Source of the DNA: Bradyrhizobium quebecense
Lineage (GTDB): Bacteria; Pseudomonadota; Alphaproteobacteria; Rhizobiales; Xanthobacteraceae
Direction of reading: 5' to 3'
DNA length: 64,000 nucleotides
NCBI RefSeq assembly: GCF_013373795.3
Contig: NZ_CP088022.1
Span: 5,394,001 to 5,458,000 of the forward strand
The notes under the pieces were generated by a model that worked only from the letters and a program-made list of their open reading frames with translations, did no database searches and was not told where the DNA came from. The position numbers and the translations under genes are program-made. Shown here one piece after another: positions 1,158 through 43,339 of the stretch (positions are counted from its first letter, which is position 1; the number at the start of each line of letters is the position of its first letter).

Positions 1158-2060
1158 CTACGCCAGGAAAAACTCCCGCAGCAGCTTCGCCGTCGCGTCC
1201 GGCGCCTCCTCGGGCAGGAAATGCCCCGATGCCACCGGCGCCCCGCTGACATTGGTCGCCCAGTTCTTCCAGGTGTCGAGCGGCGTGGTTGCCGCGCTGG
1301 CAACGCCGGCATCGCCCCACAATGCCAGCATCGGGATCGTGATCTTCCTGCCGGCATCGACGTCGGCCTTGTCGATCTCGTAGTCGGCATAGGCGCCGGC
1401 GCGGTAGTCCTCGCACATCGCATGAATGCGGGCGGGATCGCGGAACGGCGCAAGGTAATGCGCGAGCGCGCGCGGATCGATCGCCTCCAGCGTCTTGGTC
1501 CTGGTCTGGCTCGCCATCTTCTCCTTGAGGAAGAATTCGCCATTGTTGGAGATCAGCGTCTCAGGCAGCGGATAGGGCTGCGCCAGGAACGCCCAGTGGT
1601 AGATCTTCAGCGCCGAAAGCCGATTGAGCTTCTGCCAGTAGTCATAGGTCGGCGCGATATCGAGCACCGCAAGCTTGGACAGCCGGCCGGGATGATCGAG
1701 CGCCAGCCGGTATGAGACGCGGCCACCGCGGTCGTGACCGGCGAGCGCGAAATGCACATGGCCGAGCTGCTCCATCGCCTCGACCATGGTCTTGGCCCAG
1801 ACCCGCTTGGTGTAGGGCGTATGGTCCTTGTCGCTATCAGGCATGTCGGACCAGCCGTAGCCCGGCAGGTCGGCGATGATCAGCGTGAACTTGTCGTCAA
1901 GCTTCGGCGCGACCGTGTGCCACATCACATGCGTCGAGGAAAACCCGTGCAGCAACAGCAGCGGCGGCCCCTTGCCGCCGACGCGGGCGAAGATGCGGCC
2001 CTGCGAGGTGTTGAGCCATTTGGATTCATAGCCGGGAAAAAGATCAGCGAGATCAGGCAT
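1158..2060 (-). CDS. dehH: Fluoroacetate dehalogenase (haloacetate dehalogenase)
   Basis: A 300-residue alpha/beta hydrolase. Counted from the ATG at 2060, the residues fall on the positions known for Rhodopseudomonas palustris fluoroacetate dehalogenase: Asp110 nucleophile in GHDRGGR, Arg111 and Arg114 for the substrate carboxylate, acid Asp134, His155-Trp156 and Tyr219 as halide pocket, and His280 as general base in SGHFLPEE. It should hydrolyse fluoroacetate to glycolate and fluoride in the cytoplasm. The start at 2060 is preferred over an upstream frame because GGAG sits 6 bases before it and the numbering fits. It is divergent from an acyl-CoA dehydrogenase. The symbol follows the family (dehH1-like). 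Activity on other haloacetates is also possible. Confidence 0.9.
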
Positions 2061-14866: not shown

Positions 14867-15799
14867 CTACGCTGCGCGCAGCATCGCATCGACGACCAGG
14901 CTCGCGAACAGGATGAAGCCGGCGTCGCGGTTGGATTTGAAGATGCGCAGACAGAGTGCGGGGTCGCTGGTGTCGAGCCGGCGGACCTGCCAGGCGAGAT
15001 GCAGCGCGAACGCCGCCAGCCCAATCCAGGCCGGCCAGCGCGCGCCCGCGAGCGCGAAGGCCACGCCGATCAAGAGCACGGCGAGACCATAAAAGATCAC
15101 CAGCGCCCGATGGGTGCGTGCCCCGAACAGGCGCGCGGTGGATTTGACGCCGATCAGCGCATCATCCTCGGCGTCCTGATGGGCGTAGATGGTGTCGTAG
15201 GCGACCACCCAGGCGATCGATCCGGCGTAAAGCGCGACCGCGGCCGCATCGATGCGATCGAGCGTCACCGCAAATCCCATCAGGGCGCCGTAGGAAAAGG
15301 CGAGGCCGAGCACGACCTGCGGCCACCAGGTGATCCGCTTCATGAACGGATAGATCGCGACGATCACGAGCGAGGCGATGCCGGTCATCACCGCGAAGCG
15401 GTTGAACTGCAGCAGCACGAGAAGCCCGATCAGCGCCTGCAGGACCATGAAGACCACCGCCTGCGTCACCGTGACCTGCCCGGCCGGGATCGGCCGCGAC
15501 CGCGTACGCTCGACCTTGGCGTCGAGATCGCGATCGGTGATGTCGTTCCAGGTGCAGCCCGCGCCTCGCATCACGAAGGCGCCGATGAAGAACAACAGGA
15601 CGACGAGCGGGAGCGAGCGCACATCGTGCGCGACGCCGGCGGCGAGCGCCGCCGACCACCAGCACGGCATCAACAACAGCCAGGAGCCGATCGGCCGATC
15701 GTAGCGCGCAAGCCGCAGATAGGGCCGCGACCAGACCGGCGCATGGGTGTCCACCCAGTTGCCTGTGGAGTCGGCAACGCGGGCGGAGACATCGCTCAT
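14867..15799 (-). CDS. ubiA: 4-hydroxybenzoate polyprenyltransferase
   Basis: A 310-residue integral membrane prenyltransferase of ubiquinone synthesis. It attaches the polyprenyl chain to 4-hydroxybenzoate. The two Asp-rich, magnesium-binding motifs are present: GCTWNDITDRDLDAKVERTRSRP near residues 82-103 and AYDTIYAHQDAEDD near 201-214. About eight hydrophobic segments follow the family pattern. The N-terminus is soluble. It lies 25 bases upstream of nothing on its own strand except the preceding secreted-protein gene (15825-16559), so the two may share a transcript. Confidence 0.95.
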   Translation of the reverse strand: MSDVSARVADSTGNWVDTHAPVWSRPYLRLARYDRPIGSWLLLMPCWWSAALAAGVAHDVRSLPLVVLLFFIGAFVMRGAGCTWNDITDRDLDAKVERTRSRPIPAGQVTVTQAVVFMVLQALIGLLVLLQFNRFAVMTGIASLVIVAIYPFMKRITWWPQVVLGLAFSYGALMGFAVTLDRIDAAAVALYAGSIAWVVAYDTIYAHQDAEDDALIGVKSTARLFGARTHRALVIFYGLAVLLIGVAFALAGARWPAWIGLAAFALHLAWQVRRLDTSDPALCLRIFKSNRDAGFILFASLVVDAMLRAA

Positions 15800-15824
15800 G
15801 GCCGGTCAATCATCGGGCGCCCAA

Positions 15825-16559
15825 TCATCGGGTGAGAACGTTGCCGTTCAGCGTATCGAAGGTGCTGCCGCCCTTCTTGGTCGGCGTCGCTTCCGGCAGC
15901 GAGGCGGACGAGCCGAGCACGTCGCTCAGCGACGGCCCCGCGGGCCCGCGCGGCTGTGCCGCCGCCTGCTCCGCGACGTTGCAGACCTTCTTCAGCAAGG
16001 CCTCGGTATTCTTGTGACCGTCCTTGAGCTGGTTGGAGATCTGCGGCGGGATCCCGCACTTCGACGCGTTGGTGTCGACGTACTTGATCATCTTGACTTC
16101 GGCCTGGCTGTAATTGCCGATCAGCTTGCAGGCCTCCTGCGGGCTGGCGTGCCGGTCGCTCGCCGCCTTGATCGCCTTGCCGCGCTTTTCGGCTTCCTCG
16201 CGTAGCGGGACGAAATCCTTCATGCAGGCGTCACCGGCGGCGCCACCACCGGCGCCGGGCGGGGGCGGCGGAGACGACAGACCGCCGCCGGCGATCGGAG
16301 CCGCACCATTGCTCGGAAATGGCGACGGCGCGCCGCCGACCCTGGCCGCGGGGGCGCCGTTGACCGGCGGAAACGCCGGATCCGGTGCGGTGCTCGCCCG
16401 GCTCGGGCGCGCGCCGTTCACCGGCGGGAACGCGGGATCCGAGGCGGTGCCGGCCTGGCCTTGATTGGGCAACGGCGCCGGAAAGGCGCTCTGGGCCGCG
16501 GCGTGCCCCGCGGACAGGGCGGTCGCGGCAACGGTCAGCACGATCAGTCGGCGGATCAT
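15825..16559 (-). CDS. Secreted Pro/Ala-rich hypothetical protein
   Basis: A 244-residue protein with a cleavable signal peptide (MIRRLIVLTVAATALSAGHAAAQ). The start at 16559 gives this signal. Residues 40-70 contain two exact DPAFPPVNGA repeats in a Pro/Gly-rich linker, then PPPPPGAGGGAAG. The globular second half has four cysteines (ACMKDFVPLREEAEKRGKAIK, EACKLIGNY, SKCGIPP, KKVCNVAEQ), suggesting two disulfides in the periplasm. I recognise this as a conserved Bradyrhizobium hypothetical, no function. Precedes ubiA on the same strand with a 25-base gap. Confidence 0.75.
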   Translation of the reverse strand: MIRRLIVLTVAATALSAGHAAAQSAFPAPLPNQGQAGTASDPAFPPVNGARPSRASTAPDPAFPPVNGAPAARVGGAPSPFPSNGAAPIAGGGLSSPPPPPGAGGGAAGDACMKDFVPLREEAEKRGKAIKAASDRHASPQEACKLIGNYSQAEVKMIKYVDTNASKCGIPPQISNQLKDGHKNTEALLKKVCNVAEQAAAQPRGPAGPSLSDVLGSSASLPEATPTKKGGSTFDTLNGNVLTR

Positions 16560-16825
16560 CGAGGGTGTTTCTCCGGCAAAAGGTCCAGGCAACCCCAGCG
16601 CAACAAAACGAAGCAACGAAATTTGGGGGCGTTTTACGATTCCTGTGAGCCCTTAACAACCCGTGGATTTGGGCGACAGCGCGGCGTAGGGCCACACCGG
16701 CCACATTAAATTGTTCCCCGATTTGAAGCCTTTAGGCCGCGAACGGCGGTAAAACCGGACCATCACATGTGCCTGAACGGGATTTTCGGTGATCCTCAGC
16801 TCGAATATGCGGCCCCACACCGACC

Positions 16826-16960
16826 GAAAAACAAAAGGGGCCGCGTGCAAGCGACCCCTCGGACTTCAAAAATGACTTGGTGACAGAAGCAATATATCGA
16901 CACCACTGTAGTAGTTGGCCGGAGCGTTCCTGACGAGTCCGAGGGACTACGGTGTCACCC
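16826..16960 (-). ncRNA. Candidate structured RNA ending in an intrinsic terminator
   Basis: On the minus strand, GACACCGTAGT (16956-16946) pairs with ACTAC-AGT-GGTGTC (16912-16899), an 11-bp stem with a 3-base bulge. Its loop carries CCCTCGGACT (16945-16936), a perfect complement of AGTCCGAGGG (16865-16856). The latter overlaps the 5' arm of a terminator hairpin, AGGGGTCGC-TTGCAC-GCGGCCCCT, followed by TTTTGTTTTT. This could be a pseudoknotted small RNA or a terminator/antiterminator leader. The next minus-strand gene starts 267 bases downstream. No Rfam family recognised. Confidence 0.5.
16828..16860 (-). terminator. Intrinsic terminator of the candidate RNA
   Basis: Nine-pair hairpin (one G-T wobble) with a six-base loop and a TTTTGTTTTT tail on the minus strand. 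No minus-strand protein gene ends nearby, so it implies an untranslated minus-strand transcript. Confidence 0.75.
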
Positions 16961-17116
16961 GGTTTGGTTAACTTGCCCCGCCGCATTGAAGCCGCCTTAG
17001 CGTTGGCAGACGATGTCAGTCATTGGAATCTGACGATTCTCTCCGATCGTAATCAGCAGCAGTGGGCGATACTTGGCAGCACCGTTGGGCTAGAACGCGG
17101 CTCAGGAATCCAGGAC

Positions 17117-17869
17117 ATGCCTGAACTTGATTTTCGCAGCCCCCGCCTGTTTGTCGATGCCCCGCTCGGTGCCGGCACATCCGTTTCGCTCGAACGCGAC
17201 CAGAGCAACTATCTCGGCAACGTGCTGCGGCTTGGCGCCGGCGATACCGTGCTGGTGTTCAACGGGCGTGATGGCGAATGGCGCGCCGAGATTTCCGGCC
17301 GCAAGCGGGCCGACACGCTGACGATCACGACGCAGACCCGCCCGCAGGACCGCCTGCCCGACGTGACCTATGTGTTCGCGCCGCTGAAACATGCGCGGCT
17401 CGACTACATGGTGCAGAAGGCGGTCGAGATGGGCGCGGCACGGCTGGTGCCGGTGCTGACGCGCTTCACCCAGGTGTCGCGGGTCAACAGCGAACGGATG
17501 CGCGCCAATGTGGTCGAAGCCGCCGAGCAATGCGGGATCATCTCGCTCGCCGAGGTCGCCGATCCCCTCCCGCTCGAACGTTTCCTGGCGGGGCGCGATT
17601 CGGCGCGGCTTCTGGTGTTCTGCGACGAGGCGGCAGAAGTCGCGAATCCGGTGCAGGCGTTGCAGGCGGCGACCGCCGCAAACGGCGGGATCGACGTGCT
17701 GATCGGCCCCGAGGGCGGCTTTGCCGAGGAAGAGCGCGCGCTGCTGCTGCGCCAGCCCAACATCCTCCGTCTCGCACTCGGCCCGCGCATCCTGCGCGCC
17801 GACACCGCCGCCGTCGCCGCGCTGGCGCTGGTGCAGGCGGCACTGGGGGACTGGGGAGGAAAGGGCTAA
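17117..17869 (+). CDS. rsmE: 16S rRNA (uracil(1498)-N(3))-methyltransferase
   Basis: A 250-residue SPOUT-fold RNA methyltransferase. It starts MPELDFRSPRLFVDAPL at 17117, the normal N-terminus of Rhizobiales RsmE; 55 upstream in-frame residues have no family resemblance. The N-terminal PUA-like domain (LERDQSNYLGNVLRLGAGD) is followed by the SPOUT knot with PLKHARLDYMVQKAVEMGA, VLIGPEGGFAEEE and LALGPRILRADTAAVAAL. It uses S-adenosylmethionine to methylate U1498 of 16S rRNA. Encoded alone. Confidence 0.95.
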   Translation: MPELDFRSPRLFVDAPLGAGTSVSLERDQSNYLGNVLRLGAGDTVLVFNGRDGEWRAEISGRKRADTLTITTQTRPQDRLPDVTYVFAPLKHARLDYMVQKAVEMGAARLVPVLTRFTQVSRVNSERMRANVVEAAEQCGIISLAEVADPLPLERFLAGRDSARLLVFCDEAAEVANPVQALQAATAANGGIDVLIGPEGGFAEEERALLLRQPNILRLALGPRILRADTAAVAALALVQAALGDWGGKG

Positions 17870-17897
17870 CCGGAATGGCGGCCCGCGGGCCGGCGGT

Positions 17898-18200
17898 CTA
17901 TTCGCCTGACAAATCCAGCTCTCCAAGAGAGCGCGCGGCATCGATGACGCGCATGATGCGCACGCCGCCTAGGATAATCTCGTAAAAGCGCCAGCCACCG
18001 CGAAATCACGAGCATCCTCGCACCATCGGCAATGTCGGGACGCGTCGGCCCCGATTCAGGGAATTGCGCCAACTGGCCGCAGCGCGCTTCAATGCGATCG
18101 ATCCAATGATCTGCCGTCCAGGCCCATTGTCGGATGCGATGAGAAACCAGATTTCGGCGAGATCGCTCTGCGCGAGCCGAGAAAGGCGAACCTTTCCCAA
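17898..18200 (-). pseudogene. parE: ParE/RelE-family toxin, broken by two compensating frameshifts
   Basis: The gene follows parD after one base, starting TTG at 18200. Read in pieces it gives a full 100-residue ParE: VRLSRLAQSDLAEIWFLIA, then WTADHWIDRIEARCGQLAQF PESGPTRPDI, then GWRFYEIILGGVRIMRVIDAARS. Joining them needs one missing base near 18122 and one extra base near 17998; the total of 303 bases is still a multiple of three. As it stands the frame gives only 64 residues with an unrelated second half. The toxin is therefore probably inactive. Confidence 0.85.
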
Positions 18201-42555: not shown

Positions 42556-42880
42556 GACGATCCCCATCTACTTTTCCAGACAGCCCAGCTCCGGTGGCCC
42601 CCAGGGCGCGCGATAACGGACTGCGACTAAATCGCGTGGGTTCAATCTGAAGCCCATGCACGGGACCGTGAAGCCAAAAAGACATGCATGTGCCGACTTT
42701 TTAGGCGTTCCAGCACTCTCGCCACACGTTGGTTGACGGGTGTTGCATTTGCACCACAAGACTCATGGCTCCCGCCCCGGTTGAGCGGCACGCAAAATCG
42801 GATTCGAGCAACAGTTCGACATGCTGCAGTCGGTATCGACGCGAATCGCGCCTCCGCAAAACTACGGACGGCCGATACGG
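42556..42880. other. Intergenic region upstream of the porin, no gene seen
   Basis: About 325 bases between the porin start and the terminator of the H1-like gene. It should hold the porin promoter and a long untranslated leader. It includes near palindrome CCCATGCACGGGACCGTG, but I cannot assign a site. Several short frames are not credible. Confidence 0.4.
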
Positions 42881-42937: not shown

Positions 42938-43339
42938 CTAGTGGTGCTCGCTGTCGGACGTGCCCCAGCTCGGCGCCGGCTCGTGGCTCGGCGTGGCCCA
43001 GCTCGGGGCCGGCTGCGGCGCGGGCTCGGACGCCGGGGGCGCTGCAACCGGGGCAGCCGGCTTCGGCGCGGCGGCCTTCTTCGGAGCGGTCTTCTTGGCG
43101 GCCTTCTTCGCAGCCGGCTTCGCGGCCTTCTTGGGCGCGGCCTTCTTCGGAGCAGCCTTCTTCGCAGCTTTCTTAGCGGTCTTCTTGGCTGACTTCTTCG
43201 CCGATTTCTTTGCAGACTTCTTCGCGGCCTTCTTCGCAGTCTTCTTGGCCGACTTCTTCGCGGACTTCTTCTTCGCCGCTACCGCCTTCTTGGCCTTTTT
43301 GGCCTTCTTGCTTTTCTTCGCCTTCTTCGACTTCGCCAT
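42938..43339 (-). CDS. Histone-H1-like Lys/Ala-rich protein
   Basis: A 133-residue protein. Residues 1-90 are almost only Lys, Ala, Ser, Thr and Pro in short repeats (AKKSAKK, AKKTAKKA, APKKAAPKK), like the C-terminal tail of eukaryotic H1 and the bacterial HC2/Bph1-type proteins. The last 40 residues are Pro/Ala-rich with two PAPSW repeats and end DSEHH. It should bind DNA nonspecifically through its basic tail. Low-complexity repeats make the gene prone to slippage. It is monocistronic with a strong terminator. Compare the H1-like tail of the nuclease pseudogene at 59800. Confidence 0.85.
   Translation of the reverse strand: MAKSKKAKKSKKAKKAKKAVAAKKKSAKKSAKKTAKKAAKKSAKKSAKKSAKKTAKKAAKKAAPKKAAPKKAAKPAAKKAAKKTAPKKAAAPKPAAPVAAPPASEPAPQPAPSWATPSHEPAPSWGTSDSEHH

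Follow-up and report, generated by a model that had tools for sequence, protein, structure and literature searches.

The genus Bradyrhizobium includes the main soybean symbionts. In the window analysed here, a stretch of 64,000 nucleotides from the 9.17 Mb genome of Bradyrhizobium quebecense, an intrinsic terminator lies between rsmE and its divergent neighbour, on the strand opposite rsmE. As had been observed from the sequence alone, this terminator is not convincingly the end of any minus-strand protein gene in the window genome and would otherwise be unexplained. The sequence-only reading proposed a pseudoknot or attenuator-like RNA in this region, which has the following features:

17117-17869, plus strand: rsmE, the divergent neighbour, with Pfam domains Methyltrans_RNA and PUA_4
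15825-16559, minus strand: downstream gene for a small protein with a signal-peptide-like start, an open reading frame with tblastn matches in other loci
16835-16860, minus strand: intrinsic terminator stem-loop followed by a T tract, called from its conservation
16899-16956, minus strand: bulged stem and loop of the sequence-only reading, whose bases are present but which is unsupported as an RNA structure

The product of the 15825-16559 gene matched no Pfam family at E ≤ 0.001.

The bases of the proposed fold are as described. On the minus strand an 11-pair stem with a 3-nt bulge can be drawn between GACACC+GTAGT (16956-16946) and ACTAC+(AGT)+GGTGTC (16912-16899), its loop CCCTCGGACT (16945-16936) is perfectly complementary to AGTCCGAGGG (16865-16856), and the latter segment shares 5 nt with the terminator stem GAGGGGTCGC/GCGGCCCCTT (16860-16851 / 16844-16835). 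When the 135 nt concerned were shuffled 500 times, 2 shuffles had a 10-bp complement at such a distance; among 500 random stretches of the window, 12 had one. The minimum-free-energy fold of these 135 nt differs from the proposed one, and is weakly better than shuffles (z -1.52; 15/200 equally stable). The earlier reading had recognised no RNA family, and Rfam 15 likewise gave no match over 16700-17100, either at gathering score or at E ≤ 10. On the plus strand CTGACGAGTCCGAGGGAC (16928-16946) resembles part of a hammerhead ribozyme core; it has no Rfam match and its CTGA is not retained in all relatives, and the resemblance was set aside as chance.

A DNA search of 265 genomes of the same genus gave a match in 23, of which 22 are counted as carriers; G025 was left out as its match consists of 33 bases of the terminator only. 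A sequence-only model recovered the same 22 carriers at E ≤ 1.7e-31 and added a divergent copy in G105 (46 bits) as well as weaker matches, which gives 30 of the 265 genomes in total at E ≤ 0.1. A core pattern searched in a named genome collection hit 17 stretches, 16 of them from Bradyrhizobium (species including B. tropiciagri, B. embrapense, B. pachyrhizi, B. viridifuturi, B. mercantei and B. macuxiense) and one from Pedobacter, which was taken as chance. Plasmid records contained no match. An rsmE tree built with the 22 carriers and 27 sampled non-carriers separates the two sets at a single branch (support 94/81); the RNA gene is confined to this one clade, and its distribution on the tree suggests a single gain.

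Conservation was studied in an alignment of 21 of the 22 carriers, L023 being omitted for a 20-nt insertion. It is concentrated in two blocks, 16957-16928 and 16901-16834, with a variable stretch between them. Mean identity is 0.93 at 16957-16928, drops to 0.81 at 16927-16915 and 0.74 at 16914-16902, and then amounts to 0.97 at 16901-16870, where 26 of 32 positions are invariant, 0.86 at 16869-16860 and 0.99 at 16859-16834. Single-base indels between relatives argue against a coding frame through the RNA.

The same 21 sequences allowed the covariance check that had been proposed. Over the whole structure of the earlier reading 76.2% of cells are paired and no pair is changed on both sides. The bulged stem is paired in 70.5% and 62.9% of cells (10 of the 11 pairs tested), and the half of the complement that competes with the terminator in 72.4%, one of its pairs being retained in 3 of the 21 relatives. 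The GGACT/AGTCC half is paired in 99.0% of cells, without covariation, and the terminator in 99.5%. With stem and competing pairs poorly conserved and none covarying, the pseudoknot is not a conserved structure, and the switch-like competition attributed to it is not supported.

This bears directly on the idea that the RNA is an attenuator or riboswitch leader acting on the 16559 gene. Such a leader would account for the terminator's place after the RNA and before that gene, all on one strand, and for the gene standing beside the RNA in carrier loci. We nevertheless consider it very improbable: the competing pairs are not conserved, four aligned species that lack the RNA still have a conserved region upstream of the 16559 gene, and operator-linked sRNA genes elsewhere (see below) have other neighbours.

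The locus also carries traces of a tandem duplication:

16769-16789, plus strand: relict of the rsmE start, left as a scar by the duplication; 17/21 bases match, 348 nt upstream of the rsmE start

Genes of the 15825-16559 type are apparently duplicated in tandem in several species. Among 30 fetched rsmE loci, 3 with and 27 without the RNA, rsmE and the divergent neighbour gene are 203-213 nt apart in 20 of the 27 non-carriers and 456-572 nt apart in the three carriers, while seven non-carriers have a spacer of 560-1007 nt in which a second neighbour-type gene is recognizable by eye. A relict of the rsmE start (15-18 of 21 bases) lies within 700 nt upstream in 21 of the 22 carriers. In the carrier L017 it is found at 816 nt (17/21 bases), and the RNA has this relict on one side and the end of a second neighbour gene on the other. 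L061 is the only one of the 27 non-carriers that shows the relict (20/21), again with a second neighbour gene between. A mobile unit that generated a 20-bp target-site duplication at the rsmE start was considered and dropped, because in L061 and L017 the extra start copy accompanies a tandemly duplicated neighbour gene. Around 49 other loci, direct repeats followed no consistent pattern.

The duplication opens another way to explain the terminator, namely as a functionless remnant, left where a second copy of the neighbour gene, since lost, once ended. The second copy in L017 does end just upstream of the RNA, and the scar persists in the window. Yet L061 retains the duplicate and shows no such RNA, and both upstream block and predicted transcript are still conserved in carriers that have lost the duplicate, hence we give this explanation the lowest probability of those weighed here.

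The reading we favour, and consider probable on the comparative evidence, is that the terminator belongs to a free-standing minus-strand sRNA gene of about 72 nt under an operator-like site shared with other sRNA genes. Its predicted parts are:

16935-16954, minus strand: operator-like site CACCGTAGTCCCTCGGACTC, within the best PWM match of the window and upstream of the predicted start
16908-16913, minus strand: putative -10 element TACTAC (TAnnAA in many relatives)
16830-16901, minus strand: putative small RNA of about 72 nt, its start placed by alignment to a family that contains BjsR7a/b; a conserved block begins there
16871-16892, minus strand: conserved, mostly unpaired core TTGCTTCTGTCACCAAGTCATT, the proposed pairing region according to conservation and fold

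The gene is intergenic, with its own conserved promoter-like region and an intrinsic terminator, as expected for a trans-encoded sRNA. The compact small RNA envisaged by the sequence-only reading thus survives as a predicted sRNA gene with an intrinsic terminator, but not with the pseudoknot as its fold, nor with the length of 110-140 nt. The predicted 72-nt RNA folds at -22.1 kcal/mol (z -2.19): its 5' part is open apart from a weak stem, which is not conserved among the relatives, and the terminator follows. A simple terminator scan of 15700-18000 found 1 terminator-like site against a shuffle mean of 2.0, and the terminator call therefore rests on conservation. The putative -10 element lies at -12 to -7 relative to 16901, and no base of the variable stretch 16914-16902 other than its T and A is invariant. 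It was not detected by a sigma-70 scan, which gave one sigma-70-like site in 15700-18000, on the minus strand at 17157-17130.

Weak matches of a sequence model elsewhere share one layout, consisting of CACCGTAGTTnnnCGGAATCC, a variable spacer with TA, GCCGGGGCTGG...CCGGC and a GGGGYCGC terminator. This dispersed family was first spotted through its resemblance to the window RNA. A DNA search with one dispersed member returned 16 matches, 14 of which span only the transcribed half or less; the upstream motif is visible by eye in most of these 14. Model R2 matched 183 of the 265 genus genomes at E ≤ 0.01 and about 150 at E ≤ 1e-10, often with several copies per genome and also on secondary contigs. 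Its E-values are too good, since 35 of 248 genomes drawn from the bacterial family match at E ≤ 0.01. Of these, 11 belong to the genus, and the other 24 reach at most 30.6 bits (six inspected look like ordinary terminators), so that the weakest of the 183 positive genomes may be noise. R2 spans the full length of the window RNA with 36.5 bits (9.4e-6 for the genome) and scores the other 21 rsmE-linked copies at 24.9-33.9 bits, several of them below the out-of-genus maximum. The body GCCGGGGCUGG...CCGGC before the terminator was not found in the window RNA, where the model of the transcribed part, R3, matches mostly the terminator (27.2 bits from 16890), so that the case for a common origin does not extend to the RNA bodies.

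The dispersed family can be tied to known transcripts. BjsR7a and BjsR7b are Northern-validated sRNAs of Bradyrhizobium japonicum USDA 110, with published starts at 8,455,582 (+) and 5,736,937 (+), respectively; the same source (PMC5082802) gives a 5' end of BjsR8 at 1,929,431, at the nifH end. The coordinates of genome G080 fit those of USDA 110, as its nifH at 1,928,579-1,929,397 agrees with this BjsR8 end. Of 10 R2 matches in G080 at E ≤ 10, two that are weak by themselves, 8,455,583-8,455,666 (+; E 0.18) and 5,736,889-5,737,033 (+; E 0.2), meet the published starts of BjsR7a and BjsR7b on the same strand. The R3 match begins at 8,455,583 and exactly at 5,736,937, and from the latter start the BjsR7b transcript begins with GCCGGGGCTGGC. 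In these RNA genes the transcript accordingly starts at GCCGGGG, and the CACCGTAGTT...CGGAATCC block therefore falls upstream of the start, as promoter or operator DNA. Because the DNA upstream of BjsR7a/b is without the operator motif, the start of the block-bearing genes was carried over by alignment; for the window RNA it is predicted near 16901, at 40 nt counted from CGGA as in the dispersed RNA genes.

BjsR7a/b and the window RNA are alike in being intergenic sRNAs of similar layout that end in a G+C-rich terminator (PMC5082802 for the former). They differ in that BjsR7a/b start with AUCCGGGG/GCCGGGG and pair their 5' end with CCCGGA before the terminator, whereas the window RNA is predicted to start with GUCGAUAU and shows no such stem, its 5' end being neither ACCGGGG nor GCCGGGG paired with a pre-terminator CCGG. 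BjsR1-6, 9 and 10 are also small intergenic RNAs of the genus, and by eye the sequences at their published coordinates are unlike the window RNA. BjsR1 in particular was rejected as its counterpart, as the sequence at 1,134,665 of G080 differs; model R1 gave no match on the fetched BjsR1 stretch. A third BjsR7-like sequence, ACCGGGGCTGGCGACATTTGATCC..., was noticed in G080 at C1:5179109-5179256 (-) (L150).

The placement of the start also weighs on a longer sRNA, of at least about 110-140 nt and with a start upstream of 16957, in which the 5' block GGACU would pair with AGUCC beside the terminator stem. The preservation of GGACT/AGTCC described above would suit such an RNA, and the sigma-70-like site upstream could drive it. 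Against it, this pairing lacks covariation, the stem that holds the loop is broken in most relatives, the 5' block precedes by alignment the published starts of the related RNAs, and in the dispersed family this block is not complementary to the pre-terminator region beyond CCGG. We regard the longer RNA as unlikely. The 5' arm and loop that had been read as RNA overlap an operator-like motif common to other RNA genes, upstream of the predicted start, and are better seen as DNA of the short sRNA gene.

An operator PWM was built from 49 searched loci, which yielded 44 sites, 33 of them non-redundant and other than that of the window. Its best match in the window is 16929-16954 with 18.0 bits and its second 42844-42869 with 13.4 bits, against best scores of 7.3-11.8 bits in five shuffled windows. 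The site ranks first in all 22 carrier loci (10.3-18.2 bits), although two loci, L003 with 10.3 and L020 with 10.9, stay below the highest-scoring shuffled window. A perfect palindrome is seen in the best case, ATTCCGTA-GTAT-TACGGAAT in L166. The operator-linked set is defined by a CACCGTAGTT-n-CGGAATCC site about 36-57 nt before the start, and the window gene, which has such a site with 2 mismatches, belongs to it.

In the whole genome the pattern occurs at 23 sites with ≤3 mismatches, most of which are noise since the reversed control gives 17. Three have ≤2 mismatches: that of a recA-linked RNA gene (0), that of the window (2) and one within a long open frame (2). Sixteen of the 23 sites were inspected for terminators, and 5 of these (C1:4001690, the window, C1:3926708, C1:7682194 and C1:3231650) are followed by an intrinsic terminator at a distance of 94-125 nt. 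For comparison, a terminator at 85-130 nt was seen for 28 among 1500 random positions of the window and for 17 among 1150 of the fetched loci. The first four of the five sites were already R2 matches, and C1:3231650 is newly found.

We propose that transcription of the window gene, from about 16901, is controlled by a regulator bound at the palindrome-like site 16954-16935. In the resulting RNA about 40 nt, mostly unpaired and with the strongly conserved UUGCUUCUGUCACCAAGUCAUU core, would be followed by the terminator with its U tract. This RNA would most likely act in trans, its UUGCUUCUGUCACCAAGUC core pairing with mRNAs, perhaps with the involvement of Hfq, and the window gene would be one of at least five in its genome that combine an operator-like site with a terminator 94-125 nt downstream. 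One regulator may control scattered Bradyrhizobium sRNA genes together. A regulon made largely of sRNAs, with several dispersed sibling genes, different pairing cores, one palindromic operator and one regulator, and with the window RNA private to one clade, is a further reading that we hold tentatively, at slightly less than even chances. Several sRNA genes of one kind per genome are likewise found among sibling sRNAs such as the csrB copies (PMC6262261). The Bradyrhizobium sRNA literature consulted, with passages of PMC4842269, yielded no description of this operator-linked set, and one paper in it names BjsR7. An orphan structure thus becomes a testable sRNA gene, two Northern-validated but unexplained sRNAs, BjsR7a and BjsR7b, are tied to RNA genes across much of the genus, and the shared DNA motif offers a handle for finding the controlling regulator.

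Some minor observations concern single loci. The second PWM match of the window, 42844-42869 (-), lies just past the terminator of a lysine/alanine-rich histone-like open reading frame (42938-43339, -), and no RNA-like terminator was seen behind it by eye. The newly found gene at C1:3231650-3231670 (-) of the window genome (L217) is a more divergent sRNA-like gene with operator site, TGCCGG...CCGGCA and terminator, and was missed by R2. Rfam gave only a group II intron on ten dispersed loci; in L087 an intron domain (RF02001, 42 bits) at 1301-1412 (-) starts about 90 nt past the RNA terminator. The window-type copy before recA in G105 (L045) was rejected as a positional link, since the recA-linked copy in the window genome is at another position. 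Copies upstream of recA occur at varied distances in seven loci (L045, L092, L105, L107, L114, L118 and L126). Fifteen other loci share a common site, beside a gene that in two of the loci was seen to be preceded by GAAC-N7-GAAC, which resembles a LexA box.
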